Below, piece after piece: positions 40,652 to 62,468 of a stretch of DNA of 64,000 nt (position 1 is the stretch's first letter; each line of letters opens with the position of its first letter). Source of the DNA: Eubacterium sp. (lineage in GTDB: Bacteria > Bacillota > Clostridia > Lachnospirales > Lachnospiraceae); the NCBI GenBank assembly GCA_017433825.1, contig JAFRGL010000009.1:1-64000 (forward strand). Direction: 5' to 3'. A program made the position numbers and the translations under genes. The notes below the pieces were generated by a model. It was not told the DNA's origin. It searched no databases and worked only from the letters and a program-made list of their open reading frames with translations.

Positions 40652-42976
40652 TCAGAGAATATCAATATACGTATTGTATTTTTCCAGACATTCCGCATCT
40701 ACGGCTTCAATCTGCGCTTCCAGTTCTTTTCTCTGCTTCCCGTTAAAGAGCCCTTTCAGGTTTTTAAGCTGTTCCACCAGCTCCGCTTTCCGGTTCTTCA
40801 GCTGATTAATCCCGTTCTGCCTTTCGATATCCTTACGGACGTTCAGAACCGCTGTTTTTCTTTCTTCTTCAAATGTGTCTATGCTGTTGAAAAGCTTCCA
40901 TTCCCGGAAAGGATTCTCCTCTGATATTCCCTTTTCAGAGCAGGAAGCAGGATTCGTGTACATGGCAGCCATGTTTCCGTCTGCTTTAAGGCCTACAAGC
41001 CTTTCTTCCGGCCCGGGACTGAGATAAACCAGATTGCTCCAGGTTTCCTTGTCCTGCTTCAGTCTGCTGAGAATGTATTCCGCCCGTTCTTTTCCATCTG
41101 GTTTTATATAATCAACAACTACGGTACCGTCTTCTTTAAGCGCTGCAGCCACAGATCCGATGCATACTGAGGATACAATCCCTTTCCACTGCTGTTCCGG
41201 GAAATGACCGTTCCAGCGCTCCTGGCTTAAGGGACCTGCATACCTGGATTTCTGACTGTTTCTATACAGCCTTCCGTCTGCTTTGACTACCAGTTCGGAT
41301 TCGTCTTTCGGTTCGAGAACATATTCTTCGGTCTGTGAACCGCTGTCCAGCAGCTCCTGCTTTCTCTGTTCCGACAGCCAGCCTCCGTCAGCCGCCAGAT
41401 TTAACCCATAACCGCCTTCGGTTGCGATACCTGCAACCTTTCCGTCATTCTGAACCCCTGCAAGAATTCTTATATTGAAGCAGACAGCTGTTATCCTTCT
41501 CCATTTTGATACCTCTTCAGTCTGATGTACATTCAAACCGTTTGTCAGAACCGTACCGTCTGTACATACGGCGGCAAGTGCATCGTGTTCAAAAGCCTTC
41601 TCATATGCAATCAGCGGACGGGCTTTATTCCATTTCCTGCGAATGCCTGCCAGTCTTTCCGTATCCCGGGCAAGCTCCTCCATTTCAAGCCTTTCCTTCC
41701 GGGCCTGAAGTGCTTTCTCCTGCTTTATCCTTTCTGTTTCTGCCTGCCTTTTTTCTTCCAGTCCGCGCATCCATACACGGTCTGCTTCGTCAGCATACTG
41801 GGCAAACCGGGAAATGGATTTGCCTGCCGGCCCGTTTTTAATATAATGCTCCTCCAGCATTTTCCTGTCAGGAACCTTTATATCAGCCATATACATACCC
41901 AGATAGCCTTCCGCACTTTCCGGATTCCGGTTCAGAATATCATCTGCTATCTGCCTGGCCTTCGCCCAATCGCCGTCCTCCAGGGAAATAACCAGTCTTT
42001 TCTTCAGGGTTTCATCCGTCGGCCCCGAATATCCCGCAGACGATACATTCTGCCCGGCGGCCTGAGGCGCATCGTAAATGCTCTCCTGCCGCAGCAGCTT
42101 GTCAACCCCCCGCAGCAAATCCTGCACAGCACCGGGTTTTCCCATATCCTGCCCCTGAAGATGGGCAAATTCCTTCGGAATATCATAAGCGTCAATACCC
42201 TTGTAACAGGCTATCAGATGCTTTGATTTGTCCCCGGCCATCAGCTTTACAAAACGGCTCCACTCATTTTTCACCCAGACAGCATTGTAGTTGTTATAGG
42301 AAGTGCCGAAGGCCAGCATCAGTTTCGCTGACTGCAGCGCAGCGAAGATATAGGGTTCATAATTTACCCCCAGCTTATCCTCCAGGGAAACTCTGGAAAA
42401 GAAGACACGGTATCCTTTGCCGGACAGTGCATCATACACCTCCTGCGCCAATACGGAATCCACGGTGCGGTCTCCTTTGTCATCTGTTTCCTTGTAACAG
42501 ATAAATATATCATACGGCTCTTCTTTTCCGGAAATTTCCAGTATGTCACGCCGCAGGCCTTCGAGAACTTTCGCCTGCCTTCTGTACAGTTCCCTGGCTT
42601 CTCCTTCTGAGTTTTCCATCACCATTTCAAAATCCGGGTCTTCCAGAATGCTGTCAAAGGAAACCCGGTGGCAGGTAGGTACCTTCTTTCCCGTAAGCGG
42701 ATCATCTATGTACTCTACACCGTATTTGCATAAGAGCAGCCCCCAGTAGCTGTCTGCATCTGCAGGGAATTCATTGATAATTGCATCATAGGCGCCTTCT
42801 GCTTTAGTGAAATCACAGGCAAAGAGCAGAGGGTTCGCCCGCTCATAAAGTTTTTCCTTTCTTTCGTCATCAAGGGAAGGGATGGTCTGACGGCTTCCGC
42901 AGAATTCACATTCCGCAATATTGTTTACCCCGACCGGATTCAGTGTTCCTCCGCACATTCTGCATTTGATCATCAT
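40652..42976 (-). CDS. Zinc-ribbon TIR protein with C-terminal RCC1-like repeats
   Basis: 774 residues, apparently cytosolic. Cys5, Cys8, Cys23 and Cys26 form a zinc ribbon. A helical tetratricopeptide-like stretch follows (about 35-145). A TIR domain spans about 154-290 (YDIFICYKETDD ... KGYRVFFSRVSLEDKLGVNYEPYIFAALQSAKLMLAFGTS). In it Glu238 (WVKNE) sits where TIR NADases have their catalytic Glu. After a helical, Lys/Glu-rich segment (about 395-450) come beta repeats such as AAVCTDGTVLTNG and AGVQNDGKVAGIA, resembling RCC1/propeller blades. TIR enzymes of bacteria act in antiphage NAD depletion or signalling; here the repeats could sense a ligand. No partner gene is adjacent, and the esterase is 28 bases downstream. 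Confidence 0.78.
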   Translation of the reverse strand: MMIKCRMCGGTLNPVGVNNIAECEFCGSRQTIPSLDDERKEKLYERANPLLFACDFTKAEGAYDAIINEFPADADSYWGLLLCKYGVEYIDDPLTGKKVPTCHRVSFDSILEDPDFEMVMENSEGEARELYRRQAKVLEGLRRDILEISGKEEPYDIFICYKETDDKGDRTVDSVLAQEVYDALSGKGYRVFFSRVSLEDKLGVNYEPYIFAALQSAKLMLAFGTSYNNYNAVWVKNEWSRFVKLMAGDKSKHLIACYKGIDAYDIPKEFAHLQGQDMGKPGAVQDLLRGVDKLLRQESIYDAPQAAGQNVSSAGYSGPTDETLKKRLVISLEDGDWAKARQIADDILNRNPESAEGYLGMYMADIKVPDRKMLEEHYIKNGPAGKSISRFAQYADEADRVWMRGLEEKRQAETERIKQEKALQARKERLEMEELARDTERLAGIRRKWNKARPLIAYEKAFEHDALAAVCTDGTVLTNGLNVHQTEEVSKWRRITAVCFNIRILAGVQNDGKVAGIATEGGYGLNLAADGGWLSEQRKQELLDSGSQTEEYVLEPKDESELVVKADGRLYRNSQKSRYAGPLSQERWNGHFPEQQWKGIVSSVCIGSVAAALKEDGTVVVDYIKPDGKERAEYILSRLKQDKETWSNLVYLSPGPEERLVGLKADGNMAAMYTNPASCSEKGISEENPFREWKLFNSIDTFEEERKTAVLNVRKDIERQNGINQLKNRKAELVEQLKNLKGLFNGKQRKELEAQIEAVDAECLEKYNTYIDIL

Positions 42977-50377: not shown

Positions 50378-50490
50378 AGCCTTCCCCCAGAGGGGGAAGG
50401 TGGTTCCGTAAGGAACCGGGTGAGGAGTCAACACCTCATCCGTCACGCCTGACGGCGTGCCACCTTCTCCTCAAGGAGAAGGCATTTTTT
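50378..50490. repeat. Multi-hairpin intergenic repeat element (MITE/REP-like)
   Basis: About 113 bases made of five consecutive inverted repeats: CCTTCCCCC/GGGGGAAGG (50380-50400), GGTTCC/GGAACC (50402-50417), TGAGG/CCTCA (50421-50439), CACGCC/GGCGTG (50444-50459) and CCTTCTCC/GGAGAAGG (50463-50482). The outer ends are also complementary: A7-GCCTTC against GAAGGC-A-T6. It lies exactly between two convergent genes, so it can terminate both. From memory, elements of this look are scattered in clostridial genomes. Confidence 0.8.
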
Positions 50491-53400
50491 CAGTACCGGA
50501 ACAGGAAGTTTACTTCCCCGGTCTTCAGATCTTTCTGAATCAGTACGCCGCCGGCCAGGTCGTAGCTGGGTCTCCAGCCCAGGCCGTCGCCGTTGGCGAT
50601 GCCCAGTGTACAGTAAATGTACAGCCGGTCATCCTGTTTCGTGTAATAATAGATCTTCAGATACGTACCGTTATCGTTGACATCAATCTTGCTGTTGGAT
50701 ATGGCAGCATATTCCTCCGGATAAAGTACTGGCTCCTCATGACCGTCTTCCCTGCTGATATCGTACAAGATGCCGTCCCTGCTGTAATAGAACCAGGTAT
50801 TTGATTCATACAGGCCGGCCGAGAGCCTGCCCTTCTGATATTCATAGGAATTCACGGAACCGTCTTCATTCACGGTGAAATCCGCATCAACCAGCGTACC
50901 TGTACCTGCGAGGATTTCTGCACTGTCTTCCCTGTTCAGATTAAACCGGGCAATTCTTCCGCCCTGGTACATGATGTAGCTTCCGGCTATCGTACCGTAG
51001 GATATATACAGGTATTCATCCCCGTCAATCACCGGCATGCGGACTTCCCCGAGACTGATGCCGCTCAAGGAATCCTTGAAATCCACTTCCAGCCGTCCGA
51101 GGAACAGCCTGTCGTCATCGTCCGCGGCAGCAATGGAGTAGACGTAAATACTGTTTCCGGTAGTTTCATAATAAATCACCCGGTCATTGTAATTCGCAAT
51201 ATACCCTGCCTCGCTGCTGATTTTGTTCATCACATAAGTTTCCTGGGTATCGCTGGGCGTGGTGTCCATGGTGTACAGTCCGGTGTAGTTGCTCACAATG
51301 ATATGGCTGCCGGACTCCAGCACGCCTAAAAGCTCACCTGTGCACAGCGTCTTTACCGGTCCTCCGTCCATATCCACCGCCTTTATGGTCCGTCCGTCTT
51401 CCCGGTATTCTCCCGTAAAGAAGATCTGGCCTCTGGCCGCGGCAATTCTGCCGGATGCGGGTGTTTCCGCAAGCACAGTCTCTTCGCCGTCTTTCAGGCG
51501 GACAACAGAATTCGGCTGGTTTGCGGCCAGAGCGAAGAAGCCGGTCAGGCCGGGTGACATATGGCTGTCCATGCTGTATTTGATGTAGTAAACCGCACCG
51601 CCTGCTTCCACGGCCACACCGTATGCACCGCTGCCGCCCAGATAAGCGGTCTTCATTTCCTTCTCAAGCCCGGATTCGAATTTTAACGAAAGCTCATCCT
51701 CCCCTTCCACAGTGGGCGAAGTAAAGACAAAGGAAAGCATGAAATCCAGATCCGGATTTTCTTCAATGTAAACCGGTTCCAGAACCGGGACGGAAATCTT
51801 TTCGTATTTACCTTCCTCATCCGGGTGGAAGCGGTTGATAAATTCATTGTCCCGGCCGTAAATATTGCACTCCGCATCCGGCACCGGGGAATCATCTTCC
51901 ATGTTTTTCACATCGCCGGAAATGGTGACGTAGAGCTTGATCACACTGTCAATCAGCCCGCTGTCGTCCAAGGCGTAATAGGCGTCCATCAGATCTCGGA
52001 AATTCAATGAAGCAATTGTATCGTCATCCGAAGGATTATAGTCATCCATCATTATAGACACTGCTGAAAGCATCTCTGATTTTTCGGATTTCAGTTCCTC
52101 GTCTATCGAATCCGTCTTCAATGCCTCCATCGCAAGCTGTCCGGTGGAAATGCACGTTCTCAGATACAGATACGCAGCCTCAATGGCATCTCTCCTGTCT
52201 TCTTCCGTCCAGGTTTTGCTTTCGGCAAATCTTCTGAGCATGGCATCTTCGGTATCCGCCTCCAGGGAAAGTCCGAAAAGGGAAGTCATATAACTGTCCA
52301 TACTTGCCAGTGATTTTTTCCAGAACGGAACCGTACCTGCCGCTATGCGGTAAACTGCTGTGAGGATTTCCGCCGGTGCGGAAGCGGCTCCTACTGCCGC
52401 ATCTATCGTAAAAGATACCAGGGCATCGGTGATAACCTGGCCCGTGCCGTAGTCCAGATAATCTTCCATTATAGCGTCGTATTCTTTTTTCATCGCCTCT
52501 GCGGCGGCAGTTCCGATATGTCCGTGGCAGCCGGTATCTTCCAAAAAGTCTTTCAGACTGTTTTCCAGAAACTTGTCCCTGCTGTCATACTGGTTGACAT
52601 AAATCTGGAAAGCCAGCAGTGCGCCGACTTCTGTAAAGACGATATTTGCGGTGTAGGCACCGGCCTCGGCAACCTGGTCTATCGCGTCAATAAAACGCTG
52701 TGATTTTTTCATCATTCTGAGCAGATCAACCTTTACCTGCTCTGCGCCGTACAGCCAGTTTTCCGATGCGCCATCGGATGCATTAATAAGCGCCCGGTAT
52801 AAAAGGCCCGGCTCCAGCTGACCCTCTCCTCCGAGGGTATACGGTGTTTCCCTGAATACTTCCACTGCCAGGTTTGTCAGAAACGCAGCCGAATCCGTAC
52901 TGGTCTGTGCCATGGCTTCCGCTTCATCCGCACTGCAGAACCAGATCTCTTCCAGCATTTTTTTGCCTACGATCCGGTTCCACTGATCTCTGGAAGGATC
53001 AATATCCTGATGTGTAATATATCCCCACGCATCTGTCCAGCCGGAGAATGCAGAAAGCGTGAAATACCAGATATACTCGCCTTTTGCATGAAGCATCTGG
53101 TCAAATGTGGTGGAAACTGCACCTGAAGTATTCATCCATCCGGCTGCTTTGGCATAGCCTTCCAGTTCATCATAGGAAAATGCATACTTCTGCCGAATCC
53201 TGCTGCTGCATAACCGGGCCATCACATCCCAGGAATTTTCCTCAGGCGGCATGATGGTACAGATCATTTTGTTCTTTTCATCCGGTGCGCATACTGCCCG
53301 GACGCCCATCAGCGTCAGCACTTTGGAAAAAGGCACCCACAAAACCTGTTCCTGCTCCAGCGTATAGAAAGATGCGGGCTCCATGGAGACCTGCAGGGAA

Positions 53401-53831
53401 TACAGTGATTCCTGCGGATTCTCCCCCAGGAAATAATCGGCCCTTTCCTGCTGCGGGGAAATCAGAAGATGCCGTTCAAATGCGGAAAAATGGGCCCGGA
53501 ATCCTACTTTTTCGTAATCCTCCTCATACGAAATACCGCTGACTTCGGCCAACTGCTTCGCCCGTACAAACACCGTATTTTTCCACACGAGCACGGGCAG
53601 ATAAGCTGTGACGGAATCATTTTCCAGCCCCCTGGGATAATAGCGAATCGGCAGATAGCCGTAATAGCCGTCTTCCTTCGGATTGTAGTCTTCCAGGTTT
53701 GTGCCGTCGCCGTATTTCGGAATTGTCGGATAAGCCAGGTCGTCGGCAGAAGTCTCTCTTTGCATGCCGGCAAAGAGGGAGAAAATCATGGTGATGACCA
53801 GCAGAAGGGAAAGTATTTTTCTTGTTTTCAT
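50490..53831 (-). CDS. Large secreted protein with copper-amine-oxidase-like N terminus and beta-repeat C terminus
   Basis: 1113 residues. A signal peptide (about 1-25, no lipobox Cys) precedes a segment with two short motifs (VFVRAKQLAEVSGISYEEDY, VLWVPFSKVLTLMG) resembling Cu-amine-oxidase N-terminal domains, which bind cell walls. A long helical middle follows (about 200-640), then a beta region (about 740-1100) with tryptophan-poor propeller-like blades (VYYIKY, IFFTGEY, VIYYETTGNSIYVYSI) similar to DUF5050. It overlaps the zinc-ribbon membrane-protein gene upstream by four bases (ATGA), indicating one unit. Function unknown. Confidence 0.6.
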   Translation of the reverse strand: MKTRKILSLLLVITMIFSLFAGMQRETSADDLAYPTIPKYGDGTNLEDYNPKEDGYYGYLPIRYYPRGLENDSVTAYLPVLVWKNTVFVRAKQLAEVSGISYEEDYEKVGFRAHFSAFERHLLISPQQERADYFLGENPQESLYSLQVSMEPASFYTLEQEQVLWVPFSKVLTLMGVRAVCAPDEKNKMICTIMPPEENSWDVMARLCSSRIRQKYAFSYDELEGYAKAAGWMNTSGAVSTTFDQMLHAKGEYIWYFTLSAFSGWTDAWGYITHQDIDPSRDQWNRIVGKKMLEEIWFCSADEAEAMAQTSTDSAAFLTNLAVEVFRETPYTLGGEGQLEPGLLYRALINASDGASENWLYGAEQVKVDLLRMMKKSQRFIDAIDQVAEAGAYTANIVFTEVGALLAFQIYVNQYDSRDKFLENSLKDFLEDTGCHGHIGTAAAEAMKKEYDAIMEDYLDYGTGQVITDALVSFTIDAAVGAASAPAEILTAVYRIAAGTVPFWKKSLASMDSYMTSLFGLSLEADTEDAMLRRFAESKTWTEEDRRDAIEAAYLYLRTCISTGQLAMEALKTDSIDEELKSEKSEMLSAVSIMMDDYNPSDDDTIASLNFRDLMDAYYALDDSGLIDSVIKLYVTISGDVKNMEDDSPVPDAECNIYGRDNEFINRFHPDEEGKYEKISVPVLEPVYIEENPDLDFMLSFVFTSPTVEGEDELSLKFESGLEKEMKTAYLGGSGAYGVAVEAGGAVYYIKYSMDSHMSPGLTGFFALAANQPNSVVRLKDGEETVLAETPASGRIAAARGQIFFTGEYREDGRTIKAVDMDGGPVKTLCTGELLGVLESGSHIIVSNYTGLYTMDTTPSDTQETYVMNKISSEAGYIANYNDRVIYYETTGNSIYVYSIAAADDDDRLFLGRLEVDFKDSLSGISLGEVRMPVIDGDEYLYISYGTIAGSYIMYQGGRIARFNLNREDSAEILAGTGTLVDADFTVNEDGSVNSYEYQKGRLSAGLYESNTWFYYSRDGILYDISREDGHEEPVLYPEEYAAISNSKIDVNDNGTYLKIYYYTKQDDRLYIYCTLGIANGDGLGWRPSYDLAGGVLIQKDLKTGEVNFLFRY

Positions 53832-54898
53832 TCTCCTTTCACCTCCTCGTACAGCTGTTCATACAAAGCAAGCATTTCCTGTTCATCCAACTCGATCAGT
53901 CCGCCGTAAAGCGCCCTGACAGCTTCCTCCGAACGATCCGCGTATACTTCACCATCCTCAGCCTTGTTCAGGGTTACGGTGACGGTAACGGTTCTTTTTT
54001 CATAACGGCCTGCCGCCAGCTCGCCTTTCATCGCCGCAAGCAGCGCGTCCGGGTCGTCATAATCCCGGAAATGCAGGGTTTCCATCACGGCTGCCGCGTC
54101 CGGCCCGGTGACAGTCATCTCCACCTCCGAAGGATATTTCATTCCGAAGCCTGTTTTCAGGGAAATATCCGTGCAGGAAAGGAGGGCTTTCAGCACCGGA
54201 GCGTCTTCCGCGCCGGACTCCGCATCATCTTCAAAGAAAGAACCGTACAGTTCTTCCATTTCCCGGATATGCGCCTCGTCCTCTGCCGTCCTTCCCTGAA
54301 GGCTGCGGACGCCTGCCAGATCGTCGATATCGCCGGAAAGCCACTTGTCAACCAGGGCTTTCGGGGAATCTGCCGTCTGTTCGCCGGGTGTGCCGTCCGC
54401 TTCCGTGTTCCCCGCTGTCCGGCTGTCACCTGACCGAAAATGCTTAAACAGAAAGACGCCGGCCACCGCAGCCGCCGCGATGATGCAGACAATCAAAATC
54501 AGGGCACCCTTTCTGATGCCCGTTCTGCTTCCTGAAACAGTCTGGTTTACAGGCTGCCTGCGGTTCTGCGTACGATTGTAAACCGGCTCCCGGTATTCTT
54601 CTTCGTACGGTTCATCTGCATACGGTTCGTCTGAATATTGTTCATCCGTATACTGTTCATCCGAATACGGTTCTTCCATGTACGGTTCGTCCGCAAAGGA
54701 TTCTTCTTCGTAAAACGGTTCTGATTCCTCAGGAATGTACGCTTCCTCCGGAATAAATGTTTCTTCCGGAATGTACGGTTCCTCCGGAACAGGTGGCTCA
54801 TCCGTCTGCCTCGGCGTGATTTGAACGGTTTTCTGTCCGCAATAAATACAGAAGGATGCGTTGTCCGGCAGTTTCCTGCCGCATATTCTGCAGAACAT
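53828..54898 (-). CDS. Zinc-ribbon membrane protein with acidic Tyr-rich repeats
   Basis: 356 residues. Zinc ribbon at the N terminus (CRICG, CIYCG). Then about 80 residues of Pro/Glu/Tyr/Asp-rich repeats (EEPYIPEETFIPEE; YSDEQYTDEQYSDEPY), a basic segment, one membrane helix (about 131-150, GALILIVCIIAAAAVAGVFLF), and an outer alpha/beta domain (about 170-356). The ribbon and repeats should be cytosolic. The overlap with the 1113-residue secreted gene couples the two. Function unknown; a membrane sensor or anchor is inference. Confidence 0.62.
   Translation of the reverse strand: MFCRICGRKLPDNASFCIYCGQKTVQITPRQTDEPPVPEEPYIPEETFIPEEAYIPEESEPFYEEESFADEPYMEEPYSDEQYTDEQYSDEPYADEPYEEEYREPVYNRTQNRRQPVNQTVSGSRTGIRKGALILIVCIIAAAAVAGVFLFKHFRSGDSRTAGNTEADGTPGEQTADSPKALVDKWLSGDIDDLAGVRSLQGRTAEDEAHIREMEELYGSFFEDDAESGAEDAPVLKALLSCTDISLKTGFGMKYPSEVEMTVTGPDAAAVMETLHFRDYDDPDALLAAMKGELAAGRYEKRTVTVTVTLNKAEDGEVYADRSEEAVRALYGGLIELDEQEMLALYEQLYEEVKGE
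54585..54790 (-). repeat. 18-bp repeats encoding the acidic Tyr segment
   Basis: Multiple imperfect copies of a short unit around TACGGTTCTTC/GTTCATCCGAATA, about 18 bases apart, strongest at 54600-54700. They encode the DEPY/DEQY repeats of the membrane protein. Confidence 0.7.
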
Positions 54899-57267: not shown

Positions 57268-59337
57268 TCATAACGCCGGCTGCTCCAGATTGTATGTTTT
57301 CCGTTCCTTTGCCGTAAGCTTCCGCCCGTTCAGCAGTCTTTCTGCCAGCGCAATCCGTTCTTCCAGACTTTCCGGAACCGGAACGGCATCCTCATGGTAT
57401 TCATAAACGATTTCGCCGCACACCACCGCGGACGCGCTGCGGAAACCGGAAGCCGCGTCCGCCGGGCCGTGTATTTCAGGGTATTTCCCCGCGTCGGGTA
57501 TCTTCCGGCCTTCCAGTTCCTCCCCCGTTTCAGGATTGATAAAAAACGGTGTTTCCCTCAAGGTAGCCATGAAATAACCTTCCGATGAAAAGCCGAAGGA
57601 ATTGAAGCCGCCAAGGCCCTCTTCTTTCAGCTCGCACAGCCGTTTCCCTGTGTTCAGGTCATAAAAAGCAAAGCCCAGATTGGTGCCGCTCAGGCACAGA
57701 ATGCTCCTGCCATCCGGATAAAAGGCCTCATAATCCGCCGGCCCGGACGAGGTGTATTCATCGGTGATGGTATATTTCAGCGCAAAAGGCTCCAGGGAAT
57801 ATACGTAAATGGAAGTGCCGTCCCTGCCCAGAAGCAGGTTTTTCCCTTCCGGCTGTTCCAGACGGTACAGGCCTTCAAGGGCATCCGTTTCCCTGAAGGG
57901 CTCCGGCGTAAAAATATGGATTTTATTCGTATCGGAAGCGGTGGCCGCCGAAGAACCGGAATACACTGTCGGTCCGAATATAAGGCTGCTGCCTTCAAAC
58001 GTCATATAGTCCTTAATCGGGGAAATGTAGCCGTAAGGGGAAGCAAAGCCTTCCCTGTCCCCGGCCGTTTCATACTCCTGTCCGTCGAAAAACGGAAGGT
58101 ATTCTTTCGTAAGCGGGTTGTACCGGTAGGAAACATCTTCGGGAGAAAACCAGGTGCACAGAAAGCTTCCGTCCGGCAGAATAAGATCCCCGGAAAATCC
58201 AACCGGATTCCCTTCTTCATCCGTCAGGTAATAATTGTTTTCCGGATGGTCCGCAAAACAGATACGGGTTCTGTATTCATTGTCATGCTTCCCGTCCTCA
58301 TCCCAGAAATAGAAGCTCCCGCCGTAAACCGCATACCCGTATTCTTCCGACCAGACATCCCTTTTCAGGGTAAATGTATCGCCCCTTTCCGGGTTGTAGC
58401 CTTCCGGAATCCTTAAGGTAATTTCCCGCGGGAACTGACTGTCCTCTTCCGTTTCTTCCGGCGCTTCTTCATACCGGGTTTTGTCATATTCATACTGCGT
58501 TGTTACCGGCACATAACCGTCCTCGCAAAGGCGGCCGAGGGCGGAGACAAATACCTCCTCCAGCTCCGTACCCTGCCCGGTTTCCGGCAGGAATTCCAGG
58601 CACAGGAGAAGCGCAAGTTCGGAATCTCCTGCGTTCAGCGCATTTTTCGCATTGACGGCTGTGGAAAGGGCAAACTGTTCCCTGGCCGCATCCCTCTGCG
58701 CCTGCGTTTTTTCATTTTCCTCCTCCGCCTGCGCATACTTCTGCTGCAGGTTTTCGTTCTGTGAGGAAATTTTCCTTACCCGGGAAAACGCGAAAACAAG
58801 GAAGACGGCTGCCGCGGCCAGCACGATCACACCGGCCGTCATCAGTGTTTTCCGTATCTGACGCTGTCTTCTTCTCATCAGCTCGTCGAAGGTTACGCCA
58901 AGTACCGGTGCCAGAAGGCGTACGCATTCCGTTTTTAAGAGTCTCAGGCTTTCCTGCTCCGTATCCGCCGTGATATTGGCCGCCAGGGGCTCATGCTCAA
59001 TCACCCTGCCGTCGGCCAGCTTCTCATGCGTGAGCTCCTCCGGGAAGCTTTCCTCCGGTTTCCCGCCCGCCAGAAGCGTAAGGATATGATGATAATGCCC
59101 TTCATCCGCAAAGCCGCGGATGCGGGCTTTTACCTTTTCATCTTCCTTCGTATCCGGCGTGCAAAGCACAATAAGCCAGGGCTCCTTCACGTCGGATAAC
59201 GAGGCGATTCCGGTCTTCTCCGTGACATTTTTCGGGATTCTGAATGACAGCATTTCCTTCTGCAGCTGTCCGCAGAGGGCGTCCATTCCCGGCCTGTCCG
59301 GATATATGATTTCGATCAGGTTATTCCATCCGGTCAT
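57268..59337 (-). CDS. Membrane repeat protein with degenerate TIR-like N terminus
   Basis: 689 residues from ATG 59337 (GGAGG in the preceding gene), overlapping the TIR gene by 17 bases. Residues 1-110 align by eye with the TIR partner: WLIVLCTPDTKEDEKVKARIRGFA matches YLIAVCSEDYLTSKWCMAEVESFI, and HYHHILTLLAGGKPEESFPEEL matches the following strand. The WCxxE catalytic segment is missing. A membrane helix (164-184) and coiled coil (about 190-220) follow, then a helical NALNAGDSELALLLCLEFLP segment and about 400 residues of beta repeats. The same plan as its partner suggests an ancient duplication. Confidence 0.65.
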   Translation of the reverse strand: MTGWNNLIEIIYPDRPGMDALCGQLQKEMLSFRIPKNVTEKTGIASLSDVKEPWLIVLCTPDTKEDEKVKARIRGFADEGHYHHILTLLAGGKPEESFPEELTHEKLADGRVIEHEPLAANITADTEQESLRLLKTECVRLLAPVLGVTFDELMRRRQRQIRKTLMTAGVIVLAAAAVFLVFAFSRVRKISSQNENLQQKYAQAEEENEKTQAQRDAAREQFALSTAVNAKNALNAGDSELALLLCLEFLPETGQGTELEEVFVSALGRLCEDGYVPVTTQYEYDKTRYEEAPEETEEDSQFPREITLRIPEGYNPERGDTFTLKRDVWSEEYGYAVYGGSFYFWDEDGKHDNEYRTRICFADHPENNYYLTDEEGNPVGFSGDLILPDGSFLCTWFSPEDVSYRYNPLTKEYLPFFDGQEYETAGDREGFASPYGYISPIKDYMTFEGSSLIFGPTVYSGSSAATASDTNKIHIFTPEPFRETDALEGLYRLEQPEGKNLLLGRDGTSIYVYSLEPFALKYTITDEYTSSGPADYEAFYPDGRSILCLSGTNLGFAFYDLNTGKRLCELKEEGLGGFNSFGFSSEGYFMATLRETPFFINPETGEELEGRKIPDAGKYPEIHGPADAASGFRSASAVVCGEIVYEYHEDAVPVPESLEERIALAERLLNGRKLTAKERKTYNLEQPAL

Positions 59338-62300
59338 CTTCCGCCTCCGTCTGCGCCAGCCTTGCGGCGGCCTTCTCCACCAGCGTATCCGCGTCGGACG
59401 AGAAAACCAGGAACGGCAGCGAATCCGCAACCACTCCCTGATGTCCGATACATACGCTGCTCCCGTCCGGGGAAACCGCAAAGGTTCTGTTTTCTTCCGT
59501 CAGCTCGGGAAGCCCGCTGCCCTCTTCATTGCCGCCCAGAAGCACCGCGTCATCCGACATCCGGCGGATCTGCTTCCCGGTGATGTAAGCTTCCTCCCCG
59601 TAAATTTCAACATGGTCTTCTTTCCTTACCCAAAGTCTCCTGCCTTCGGGGCTGTCCGCAGCGTAAATACTGCCCATCGTACCGTCTTTGTACAGTGTAC
59701 AGCAGAAGCCGGCCATATCCTTATCCTCATTTTCCGCCATCCAGTAAAGGGTCATGCCGCCCGTAAAGGGGTGTAAAATCTGCGGCGAAGCGCTTTCCGC
59801 AAAAGGTATTTCCGCTGTGGTTTCAAAGGTTTCCATGGAAATAAGCCGGATGAGGCAGCTGTCATCTCCCGTTTTCCGGATAACCGCTGTCAGATCTTCA
59901 TCCTGAATAAAGCAGATGCTGCTGTCTGTGTCTTCCGCGGGAAGTGCAAGCCTGCCGGTTTCCTGTCCGTCTGCCGCATCCAGCGAAACAAGATAAACCG
60001 ACCTTGCCACATTATCCGTTCCGGAATCCAGCGGGTTGGTTACGCAGTATACCTTTTCCCCGTTTCCGGAAAATACAGGCGCTGCGGAACCGTCCGTGAT
60101 CATGTTTTCGGGCTTGGTCTGCCATAAAATGCTGCCGTCTTCCGTATCAAATACGGCAATGGTCTGTTCCACGTCCCCGTAAATGCTGCTGACCTCCAGT
60201 CCCAGGCTTTCGTCCGGCGACAGGCCGGGAAGCAGACAGTTGCCGGATGTTTTATCCCCGTATACCGAGGCGGTAACCAGCGTTTCCCCGGTCTGCGCAT
60301 CAATCTTTGAGATGCCGTTCCGGTAATGCGTAAGCTGCCACAGAGATGCGCCGTCCGCGCTCATGACCCAGCCAAGACCGCCGTTTTCCTCCGCCTGCCA
60401 CAGAAACTTCCCGGTTTCCGCGTCCCATTTGGTTATAGTTGATCCGAACAGGTAAACCGCGCTTCCGTCCGGAGAATAGAAAGGAATGCTTCCCGTATCA
60501 ACATCTTCCTGATACAAGGCCATATAATCCGTCCTGTCCGTACCTGCCTTTGTATCGGTCAGGTAAATATCCGTCCTGTCAGAGAAAAATACGGCAATGC
60601 AGTTTCCCTTCACGCCGTAACCGTTTCTCCTCCAGCCGTCCCAGACAGCGGTTTCCGGGCGTTCCCCGGTCACCAGGTCAAAACAGAAATGACCGTCGTT
60701 TAAGTCATACATCCGCACACCGTCTTCGCAGACCGCCATCAGATAGCCTTTTCCCTGACAGGGCCAAAGTTCCCGGATGGGTGCAGGCGCTTTGATTTCA
60801 TAGATTGTTTCATAGGTTACCGCATCCATCAGCCGGGCCGTGCCGTCCCGGTCAATGGTAAAGATTTTTGAGGTTGTATCGTAAAAGCTCTGCACGTACA
60901 CAAAATCCCCGGCCAGTTTCCCTGTCTGTTCCCCGTTCCTCCAGCTGTAAATCAGAAGGTCTCCCTCTTCGTCCACAATCAGTACCCGCCGGAAATCATA
61001 GCCGGCGGTGGCATCGGCCCAGCTGATGCTCACCGGTCTCCCGGTCAGTTCGATTTCCGCCAGCGCCTCCGGCTCGTTTAGGGCAAACAGAGCCATCCTG
61101 CCGGATTTCCCTGTGTCCTCCGAAAGCCAGGCCAGGAAATTCTTTTCGAAAACGTCAACGGAATCGGCATAAAAATCCTCACCGTCCAGCGTAAAGGAAT
61201 ACCGGCCTTCCGAATATGAAGTGCTGCAGTAAAGGGGAAGCTTTGCATCATAAAACACATAGTACAATGGGGTTCCGTTCTCATGGGCAAAATATTTCCG
61301 GTAGCCTTCTTCCCAGGCCTTTTCCAGCAATGGCAGTGTCGTCTCCTCAAAAACAGGGGATGCATTTCCTCCGTACAGTCCGGAATAATCGGTCAGCGTG
61401 CCGTCTTTTAAGTCATACAGAAACGGGCCGTCCTCCGTCCTTACCCCAATGCTTCCGGCGTAGGGCGAAGGCTGCGCGTATTTCAGGATATCCACGTCAA
61501 CCGGAAGTGTCCGTTCAAACCGGTAAGAAAGGCGCACCGTCAGATTTAAGGCGGTCCGCAGCACGCTTAAGGCTTCGGCGGAAACCGGTTCGTCACCGTG
61601 AAGATCGGAGGGCAGCGCGGACAGCGCCAGACGGATGGCTTCGTCATATTCGCCCGCCGTTATCATTTCCCACGCTTTGTTCGAGAGATACCCTGCCTGC
61701 GAAAGGAGGGCTGCATTCCGCTCCTGTACGGCTTCCGCTGCCGATTTTTCGGTACGGACCGTTGCCTGTTCAATCTGCGTGTTCAGCACGGCGATTTTCT
61801 GCGCCGACTGCATCGCATAGGTGGCAAAGCCGATGATGCCCGCGGCCGCAACAGCGGCAATACCGGCAGCCCGGCCGGTACGGAAACGGTTTTCCGACAG
61901 GCGGAAATCCGCTTCGTCCGTATCGGACATGCGGGAAAGAAGGACCGGGACATGCGCTTTGAACAGGCGCCGCAGGCGAAAAGCTTCCCTCAAATCCACC
62001 GGTTCCAGGTCACTGATTGCTTCCGGTACGGCAGTTTCCTTTGTGCCGGATACCAGAACCGGGATGATTCGGTCCTTCCTTCCCTGCTTTATGAAGCTTT
62101 CCACCTCCGCCATGCACCATTTGGACGTCAGATAGTCTTCCGAACAGACAGCGATAAGGTAATCGCTGTCTTCCAAAGCCTTTTCGATATCAGCGCCCAG
62201 GTCAGAACTGGTAGGCAGCTCTTCCGTATCCCGGAAAACCCGCCTTCTTTTCGGAATTGTACAGCTTTTCGGCAGGTGCCAGCCTTCCAGTTCCCTGCGC

Positions 62301-62368
62301 AGGGCGGCAGACACCCCTGTATCCCTTTCATTATGACGATAGCTGATAAAGGCCAGATAGTTGCTCAT
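59321..62368 (-). CDS. TIR-domain membrane protein with beta-propeller-like C terminus
   Basis: 1015 residues from ATG 62368 (an upstream start at 62431 falls at the expected transcription start). TIR domain 1-145: YLAFISYRHNERD (box 1), RRVFRDTEELPTSSDLGADI, YLIAVCSEDYLTSKWCMAEVESFI with Glu88 in the NADase position. Membrane helix about 166-185, a coiled coil (190-235), a short helical repeat (NKAWEMITAGEYDEAIRLALSALP), then about 730 residues of WD/PQQ-like beta blades (GSIPFYSPDGSAVYLFGSTITKWDAETGKFLWQ; TEDGSILWQTKPENMITDG). The TIR should be cytosolic and the blades outside. Its own promoter lies at 62440-62468. Confidence 0.8.
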   Translation of the reverse strand: MSNYLAFISYRHNERDTGVSAALRRELEGWHLPKSCTIPKRRRVFRDTEELPTSSDLGADIEKALEDSDYLIAVCSEDYLTSKWCMAEVESFIKQGRKDRIIPVLVSGTKETAVPEAISDLEPVDLREAFRLRRLFKAHVPVLLSRMSDTDEADFRLSENRFRTGRAAGIAAVAAAGIIGFATYAMQSAQKIAVLNTQIEQATVRTEKSAAEAVQERNAALLSQAGYLSNKAWEMITAGEYDEAIRLALSALPSDLHGDEPVSAEALSVLRTALNLTVRLSYRFERTLPVDVDILKYAQPSPYAGSIGVRTEDGPFLYDLKDGTLTDYSGLYGGNASPVFEETTLPLLEKAWEEGYRKYFAHENGTPLYYVFYDAKLPLYCSTSYSEGRYSFTLDGEDFYADSVDVFEKNFLAWLSEDTGKSGRMALFALNEPEALAEIELTGRPVSISWADATAGYDFRRVLIVDEEGDLLIYSWRNGEQTGKLAGDFVYVQSFYDTTSKIFTIDRDGTARLMDAVTYETIYEIKAPAPIRELWPCQGKGYLMAVCEDGVRMYDLNDGHFCFDLVTGERPETAVWDGWRRNGYGVKGNCIAVFFSDRTDIYLTDTKAGTDRTDYMALYQEDVDTGSIPFYSPDGSAVYLFGSTITKWDAETGKFLWQAEENGGLGWVMSADGASLWQLTHYRNGISKIDAQTGETLVTASVYGDKTSGNCLLPGLSPDESLGLEVSSIYGDVEQTIAVFDTEDGSILWQTKPENMITDGSAAPVFSGNGEKVYCVTNPLDSGTDNVARSVYLVSLDAADGQETGRLALPAEDTDSSICFIQDEDLTAVIRKTGDDSCLIRLISMETFETTAEIPFAESASPQILHPFTGGMTLYWMAENEDKDMAGFCCTLYKDGTMGSIYAADSPEGRRLWVRKEDHVEIYGEEAYITGKQIRRMSDDAVLLGGNEEGSGLPELTEENRTFAVSPDGSSVCIGHQGVVADSLPFLVFSSDADTLVEKAAARLAQTEAEDDRME

Positions 62369-62439
62369 TTTCCTTTTCTCCGGGGTCTTTAAGCGGCCGG
62401 ATTTCCCGTCTGCTTCAAACAGATGCTCCATATATATCT

Positions 62440-62468
62440 ATTATATCATCTCATTTGTTTTATAACAA
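62440..62468 (-). promoter_or_regulatory. Promoter of the TIR pair
   Basis: Minus strand: -35 TTGTTA (62463-62468), 17-base spacer, -10 TATAAT (62440-62445). Transcription would start near 62433, giving a leader of about 65 bases before the chosen ATG. Confidence 0.75.

Follow-up and report, generated by a model that had tools for sequence, protein, structure and literature searches.

A 64,000-nucleotide stretch of the genome of a Eubacterium sp. of the Lachnospiraceae (contig JAFRGL010000009.1, positions 1 to 64,000; hereafter the window) was found to carry two overlapping genes, designated CAT and PSE, which encode paralogous proteins with an N-terminal Toll/interleukin-1 receptor (TIR) or TIR-derived domain, a predicted transmembrane (TM) helix and a repeat-bearing or probable repeat-bearing ectodomain. 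By sequence comparison with TIR receptors encoded by a single gene, CAT and PSE have lost largely opposite halves of the TIR domain, and the two are inherited as a unit; the complementary loss between partners is new in this analysis. We judge it marginally probable that CAT and PSE are two subunits of one obligate, outward-facing, single-pass membrane receptor, in which the BB-loop side of CAT would dock on PSE. Open reading frame (ORF) calls placed both overlapping genes where the original prediction, made from the letters of the DNA, had put them (59321-62368 and 57268-59337, minus strand), and the features of the locus are as follows.

59321..62368, minus strand: CAT, the catalytic partner, 1015 amino acids, TIR - TM - beta-propeller (ORF and translation; Pfam TIR_2 and PQQ_2)
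61985..62359, minus strand: TIR domain of CAT, residues 4-128, with AA loop FISYRH, BB loop RVFRDTEELPTSSDLG and WCMAE
62107-62105, minus strand: codon of CAT Glu88, within WCMAE
61811..61867, minus strand: predicted single TM helix of CAT, residues 168-186 (hydropathy scan; four lysines or arginines (K/R) before it, one after)
59876..60442, minus strand: propeller repeats of CAT, residues 643-831 (PQQ_2 match)
57268..59337, minus strand: PSE, the pseudo-TIR partner and CAT paralogue, 689 amino acids, TIR-like - TM - ectodomain
58858..59337, minus strand: TIR-like domain of PSE, residues 1-160, lacking the beta-B/BB loop/alpha-B unit and WCxxE
58789..58845, minus strand: predicted single TM helix of PSE, residues 165-183 (hydropathy; six K/R before it, three after)
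57271..58710, minus strand: ectodomain of PSE, from residue 210, a probable diverged propeller (modest profile match to the CAT ectodomain)
62440..62468, minus strand: promoter-like TTGTTA-17-TATAAT with extended TG, 72 nt upstream of the CAT start

The two genes overlap by 17 nt. Five promoter-like sites of the listed type occur in the stretch against 4.2 expected by chance, and it is position alone that speaks for the one before CAT.

CAT matched the Pfam family TIR_2 over residues 7-128 (E 1.8e-16; 61.1 bits against a curated cut-off of 28) and the PQQ_2 propeller family (E 8.6e-13), and each family was present in all ten CAT proteins scanned; the full TIR domain with Glu88 in a WCxxE motif and the beta repeats proposed for the 1015-residue protein were both borne out. 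In an alignment of 14 CAT, 14 PSE and 59 single receptors, W84, F45, R46, D47 and E88 were invariant in 14/14 CAT, while in a set of single TIR receptors collected with the CAT profile and no motif filter the Glu column was E in 58/58 and the Trp column W in 56/58. Judged by its residues, CAT carries those of an enzymatic (NADase/cyclase) TIR, a kind of domain that in many cases breaks down or converts NAD. Among the PADLOC models, those for ThsB matched CAT weakly (best 16.9 bits).

The N terminus of PSE is a TIR derivative by sequence, by profile and by the secondary structure of its own model. Single-sequence searches matched PSE residues 52-195 to the TIR-TM region of C20, a single receptor of the source genome (E 1.6e-21), and PSE residues 53-287 to its own partner CAT (E 9.5e-6), and profile-profile comparison (hhalign) aligned the PSE and CAT N termini at 98.2% (E 2.9e-14, 136 columns) and the full-length proteins at 99.8% (E 2.1e-29, 563 columns). 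Chance resemblance of the two N termini was rejected on the C20 match and the N-terminal hhalign result. The shared core that had been read by eye, WLIVLCTPD against YLIAVCSED, is in the register that hhalign itself chose. An AlphaFold2 model of PSE residues 1-160, built from an alignment of 12 relatives (mean predicted local distance difference test, pLDDT, 89.6; predicted template modelling score, pTM, 0.85), had the order strand 8-11, helix 18-31, a short helix, strand 54-59, helix 67-78, strand 85-89, short elements, strand 118-121 and helix 127-146, which may be read as strand A, helix A, strand C, helix C, strand D, strand E and helix E, the B strand and B helix being absent. A search of solved structures with the PSE profile gave a best E of 0.099, to an unrelated entry. 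The original prediction would have fallen had the second N terminus not been TIR-like, and it proved TIR-like on all three counts.

The PSE domain is also degenerate. A block of 22 residues with the BB loop and helix B is deleted in 14/14 PSE of the same alignment, and the Trp of WCxxE, W in 14/14 CAT, is W in 0/14 PSE. At the Glu88 column the 14 PSE have R (five), K (three), E (three), A (two) and V (one), the window PSE having Arg72; the three with Glu lack the W, the C and the BB loop. A fifteenth PSE (L150) has Ala at this column and a shorter gap than the others. Loss of the catalytic Glu motif, as first proposed for the 689-residue protein, therefore stands for the window PSE and for the Trp throughout, but not for the Glu in three of the 14 PSE. 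No Pfam TIR match was found in the window PSE or in any of the ten PSE alignment members scanned, and neither Pfam nor NCBIfam assigned the window PSE to a family above cut-off, nor did PADLOC match it, so that the pseudo-TIR side is a protein family unrecognised by Pfam and PADLOC. The ectodomains of PSE and CAT aligned at 88.1% (E 3.1e-6, 201 columns), and the claim that PSE repeats the layout of CAT is upheld for its TIR-like core and predicted TM, with modest support for its beta repeats.

One hydropathy peak was observed per protein, and of 32 proteins 30 had more K/R on the side of the TIR domain than beyond the TM, the other two showing a tie. With this excess and one TM per protein the propellers should face out, and a single-TM membrane receptor with N-in/C-out orientation, as predicted from hydropathy, fits both CAT and PSE, in agreement with the membrane helix and outward-facing repeats of the original prediction.

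The TIR halves retained by CAT and PSE were compared with two bases of single receptors. The first comprised 59 receptors from PSE-profile searches and fetched neighbours, filtered for the AA-loop motif and FRD/FRE; it is biased, since its C halves lean to PSE and selection accounts in part for its AA and BB motifs. The second comprised 58 single-receptor stretches from CAT-profile match lists (20 from the family, 20 from the class and 18 from relatives of genome G306), hand-picked from the stronger rows with no filter; the AA motif was present in 58/58 and FRD/FRE in 53/58, and many of the 58 genes are also in the first base. The comparison rows were 14 CAT and 13 PSE for the first base, and 15 CAT and 14 PSE for the second.

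Identity to the 58 singles, given here as the value among the 58, then for CAT, then for PSE, was 0.79, 0.77 and 0.12 in strand A with the AA loop, 0.67, 0.69 and 0.03 in the BB loop and 0.43, 0.45 and 0.01 in helix B. It was 0.65, 0.47 and 0.60 in strand C, 0.44, 0.38 and 0.24 in helix C, and 0.46, 0.41 and 0.39 in strand D. Towards the C-terminal end the values were 0.67, 0.42 and 0.56 in strand E, 0.41, 0.17 and 0.43 in helix E, and 0.47, 0.18 and 0.39 in the juxtamembrane segment. On these comparisons CAT retains the AA loop, BB loop, helix B and Glu. PSE retains the basic juxtamembrane segment together with strand E and helix E, and strand D is about equal in both. Helix E of the L150 pair is intermediate (CAT 0.29, PSE 0.42, to 14 near singles). 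Of 65 columns conserved in the second base, the region through helix C has 26 kept by CAT only and 4 by PSE only, and the region that begins with strand D has 3 and 10 (Fisher P = 1e-4); with the deleted block left out the counts are 14 and 4 against 3 and 10 (P = 0.004). The first base gave 26/8 against 5/19 (P = 4e-5; P = 0.006 without the deletion).

A second class of locus has a similar division. In seven genomes outside the ten with CAT/PSE pairs (G520, G608, G592, G383, G433, G817 and G862; L141-L145, L151, L152), a pseudo-TIR protein precedes a longer TIR protein. The catalytic partner has tetratricopeptide repeats (TPR; L141 and L144 scanned), the pseudo partner a weak PDZ_2 match below cut-off (L141 scanned), and a TM was found in the five tested; in G433 the catalytic gene is a frame of 124 residues only. 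These pairs were chosen because two matches lay side by side and make no test of co-occurrence. Their pseudo-TIRs (PSE2) have W in 0/7 at the Trp column and A (three), L (two) or R (two) at the Glu column. The column test on the second base gave 19/3 against 4/12 (P = 2e-4; P = 0.004 without the deleted block and P = 0.017 without the AA motif as well), and strand E identity was 0.64 for the pseudo-TIR and 0.20 for the catalytic partner. A quick tree of 95 rows set PSE apart from PSE2, although an approximately unbiased (AU) test does not reject one clade (P = 0.82), and a careful tree of 62 rows joined PSE and PSE2 (93/87, not starred); the claim of two independent pseudo-TIR origins was dropped on these grounds.

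Fifteen CAT/PSE pairs were identified in ten genomes, the two genes being adjacent in 15/15. Three lie in the source genome (2.6 Mb, 25 contigs): the window pair and those on C14 (L024) and C18 (L025). A profile of these three PSE, run against a genome collection (84,980 species), returned 21 loci, namely 7 full-length PSE relatives, 2 cut by contig ends and 12 single-kind TIR proteins. The nine PSE records are from Clostridiales, Clostridia or Bacillota, two of them from goat omasum or sheep rumen; RUG isolate names among them presumably denote rumen genomes. The eight genomes behind these nine records hold 11 PSE (14 with the source genome), CAT-type genes number 14, and a survey of 200 relatives of G306 added the pair of G737. 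CAT comes first in 11 pairs and PSE in 4 (G304, G305 twice, G310), and partners overlap by up to 17 nt or are separated by up to 13 nt, the commonest arrangement being an overlap of 4 nt (9/15). Contig ends cut the PSE of L039, the CAT of L032 and the PSE of G310, the last spanning two contig ends with its C-terminal part 12 nt before CAT. At one locus (L031, 7746-16534, plus strand) a PSE-CAT pair is followed after 9 nt by a complete single TIR receptor, making three TIR genes in a row.

Among the 200 relatives of G306, PSE was found in G306, G307, G311 and G737, and CAT-type genes in the same four only (229-400 bits, against at most 182 in the rest). Among the candidates scored, the source genome was the only one with CAT or PSE in 391 genomes of the class and the only one with a full-length CAT or PSE in 299 of the family, where 43 other genomes gave partial PSE-profile matches, mostly to the TIR-TM region of large TIR proteins; it was likewise the only one with the pair in a genus sample of seven genomes that included it. 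Neither a lone CAT nor a lone PSE was found in the genome samples searched, among the best candidates scored per genome: 2 (family, CAT), 4 (family, PSE), 9 (class, PSE), 7 (class, CAT) and 14 (G306 relatives, CAT), depths at which extra copies could be missed. The family CAT scan, with its best 2 per genome, does not show the source genome's own gene on C8. No such limit is apparent in the rows for the eight pair genomes or for the PSE survey of the G306 relatives. Pair genomes other than the source were found with PSE profiles, so the presence of PSE is by selection, and what these surveys test is whether CAT accompanies it and whether CAT ever occurs alone. Homologues occurring mostly apart, which would have told against the original prediction, were thus not what the neighbourhood survey found.

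Over 13 loci no neighbour family was common to more than three; a MATE-like protein (by eye) occurred in three, and a few families in two, some of these in close relatives. As neighbour families are mostly unshared, the unit is taken to be the two genes, and AIM24 or another neighbour as a third component was rejected on the same count. A phage or plasmid origin of the pair was also rejected: there was no match to it in 50,697 phage records, a patterned scan of viral contigs confirmed 0/18 candidates, and the plasmid collection gave a single match, partial in extent, to a Butyrivibrio TIR protein annotated only as 'toll/interleukin-1 receptor domain-containing protein'. The patchy distribution of the pair would resemble that of many defence genes.

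Distances among CAT proteins and among their PSE partners were correlated over the full length (r = 0.822 for 12 pairs; 0.901 for 11, without the cut L032; 0.809 for 10, also without one of two near-identical pairs), over the N-terminal part (r = 0.854, 13 pairs) and over the ectodomain (r = 0.852, 11 pairs), and in each run 0/10,000 permutations reached r. L150 and L039 were left out, L038/L135 entered the N-terminal run only, and L032 entered the 12- and 13-pair runs only. In both families the C18 pair of the source genome clusters with one pair of G309 (PSE 87, then 99/88; CAT 98, then 100/97, in quick and careful trees), and L150 is the deepest branch of both in the careful tree. L035 and L137 have similar neighbouring genes, and their pairs sit on separate branches in each of the two trees, a pattern that would fit replacement of the pair at one site or its divergence there. 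The ratio of non-synonymous to synonymous substitution rates (dN/dS) in one close comparison (L033/L034) was 0.14 in the pseudo-TIR part, 0.27 over all of PSE and 0.32 in CAT, which puts PSE under purifying selection in that comparison, so that it is maintained. By sequence and tree the nearest relatives of the pair are single-gene TIR receptors; since a single clade of PSE and CAT was not rejected (AU P = 0.77), PSE may derive from CAT or from another receptor.

A working model follows from how TIR enzymes are known to assemble. All active TIR assemblies are head-to-tail strands in which each BB loop lies on the neighbouring domain, at its strands D and E and its helix E, and this BB-loop contact between domains contains the enzyme site, as described in the available part of PMC11364022. 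The observed losses leave the BB side to CAT and the D/E side to PSE, so CAT would dock on PSE and the strand would end there, as PSE, having no BB loop, would be unable to pass it on; the product would be a defined, capped CAT-PSE unit and not an open-ended homo-oligomer. When the propellers sense a ligand or a change in the envelope, the CAT-PSE contact would be altered and would switch a NAD-consuming activity of CAT, either a NADase or a synthase of a second messenger of the cyclic ADP-ribose (cADPR) type, with probably a defence or self-harm response as output. PSE might complete the active site as an activator, which is slightly favoured, or cap it as an inhibitor. We infer the outside trigger, the use of NAD by CAT and the activating or restraining role of PSE. 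The active/inactive TIR pair first proposed as an envelope-triggered switch keeps its enzymatic-type residues, its degenerate partner, its predicted N-in/C-out orientation and its joint inheritance, its NADase activity, envelope trigger and switching being putative. A stronger form of the model, tentative and somewhat less probable than the receptor itself, is that a TIR receptor which once associated with itself was split over two genes, and that one full head-to-tail contact would now exist in the heteromer only. If so, the pair would be a prokaryotic outward-facing receptor heterodimer whose pseudo-TIR both licenses and terminates TIR assembly, and the same division would have been kept, or have arisen again, in the TPR class.

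Several points weigh against the two-subunit receptor. The column test treats columns as independent though they have one shared history, and without both the deleted block and the AA motif its result is borderline (8/4 against 3/10, P = 0.047). The split is imperfect, with 4 to 9 PSE-only columns in the N half and 2 to 5 CAT-only columns in the C half, depending on the base (70% level). CAT retains strand D and the ADLR of strand E and may therefore still self-associate, RD occupies the BB position in the PSE of L150, which is the deepest pair, and in the second class neither partner has kept helix E well (0.31 and 0.22; base 0.41). Co-divergence and linkage, finally, speak for joint inheritance and are no demonstration of contact.

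A rival reading is a toxin-antitoxin-like arrangement, in which CAT would be a NADase harmful when alone and PSE a dedicated inhibitor on its BB side, the inhibition ending on an outside signal or when PSE is lost. In its favour are the overlap of the genes, their one-to-one linkage whichever gene comes first, and the retention of mainly a docking face by the inactive partner. Against it, PSE is a large membrane protein with an ectodomain that would be superfluous in a pure inhibitor and whose divergence tracks that of its partner (r = 0.85), and TIR receptors built in the same way are also found singly, with no such partner; we regard it as unlikely, though the foremost of the alternatives. 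Less likely again is that CAT acts without NAD, its TIR serving as a signalling scaffold in a structural receptor that recruits partner proteins. The invariance of the catalytic Glu, the Trp and the BB-loop Arg and Asp in 14/14 CAT is hard to square with that idea, as is the production of ADP-ribose (ADPR) or variant cADPR by recombinant TIR_2 domains of other gut Clostridia, domains of uncertain kinship to CAT (PMC9092222, available part). It would fit with no downstream reader having been identified, although the search of the source genome for STALD came back empty with a silent control and is uninformative.

Tandem TIR-TM genes that both have catalytic motifs do exist (L146, L147), so tandem position alone is no sign of a complex, and CAT and PSE could in principle be two receptors that share an operon only, PSE sensing another ligand or being a decoy that never contacts CAT; largely opposite loss of TIR halves and one-to-one linkage would be unexpected of independent receptors, and we think this distinctly improbable. 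That PSE is a decaying, functionless duplicate, its active site lost and Pfam no longer recognising it, is scarcely credible when its frames are open in every copy not cut by a contig end, it forms one clade, it stands beside CAT each time, its N domain has 26 invariant columns over 12 sequences and the dN/dS of its TIR-like part is 0.14 (one comparison), the value on which a pseudogene was rejected.

The source genome has 12 TIR_2 matches in all. A further gene of the window (40652-42976, minus strand; TIR_2 E 2.3e-7, weak TPR matches) encodes a protein similar in appearance to that of L029 in the same genome (8461-10245, minus strand), both having an N-terminal Cys-rich stretch followed by a TIR. 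Three consecutive genes on C12 (L030, 7579-12760, plus strand) encode a weakly TIR-like protein (TIR_2 E 0.03), a clear TIR (E 1.2e-15) with weak leucine-rich repeats (LRR) and a 1020-residue LRR protein whose N terminus is faintly TIR-like by eye, possibly another active/degenerate TIR set. Two neighbouring genes on C13 (L028, 8217-9101 and 9122-9910, minus strand) each have two tandem TIR_2 stretches, and just past the window on C8 (L027, 2834-5446, minus strand; PF13676, C8:66003) lies a TIR protein that by eye starts with BspA-like leucine-rich repeats. Within the window, at 50490-54898 on the minus strand, a 1113-residue secreted-looking protein with no Pfam match lies beside a zinc-ribbon protein with a repeat-rich acidic stretch.

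Among described systems, Thoeris offers the closest precedent for two TIR proteins of which one is catalytically required. In the available part of PMC12578639, the ThsB1 protein of Staphylococcus aureus Thoeris binds a phage capsid protein and recruits and activates ThsB2, only the ThsB2 active site being required, while in the Streptococcus system of the same paper that of ThsB1 is the required one. ThsA-ThsB1-ThsB2 thus resembles CAT/PSE in having two TIR proteins in one operon with one active site needed (PMC12578639, same part), but there its TIRs are handled as soluble, act through ThsA and, in S. aureus, both have a putative catalytic Glu, whereas CAT and PSE each have a predicted TM and an ectodomain and the second TIR has no BB loop. 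No ThsA domain was found in the direct neighbours of the window pair (AIM24, URO-D-like, Na/H exchanger and zinc-ribbon proteins), the search for it being confined to this locus. NTP-dependent 'conflict' systems, in the part of PMC7159879 available, likewise set inactive enzyme versions beside active ones and in one subtype include beta-propellers, but have MoxR-vWA or STAND NTPases at their centre, domains that Pfam did not find in the pair or in six nearby window proteins. Among the matches listed in the literature searched (titles and abstract openings), no description of a membrane pair of catalytic TIR and pseudo-TIR was found, and the opening claim that no described system has exactly this pairing holds to that extent, with the two-TIR, one-site principle already present in cytosolic Thoeris (PMC12578639, available part).

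Single-gene TIR-TM-propeller receptors of Clostridia (C20, L026) have the order TIR, TM and repeats of the pair where examined, but unite both TIR halves and the active site in one protein. TIR enzymes work assembled head to tail and the limits on that assembly in bacteria are poorly known; a pair in which each partner keeps mainly one contact side is a natural test of a hetero-contact as a switch. Animal Toll-like receptor (TLR) heterodimers such as TLR1/TLR2 are pairs of unlike single-pass proteins with sensor repeats outside and TIRs inside. The TLR sensor is N-terminal, its repeats are LRRs and not propellers, and its TIRs act as scaffolds, so that the likeness to CAT/PSE lies in the working plan only; if the receptor proposed here is real, it would provide a bacterial outward-facing TIR receptor pair to compare with the Toll-like receptors of animals.

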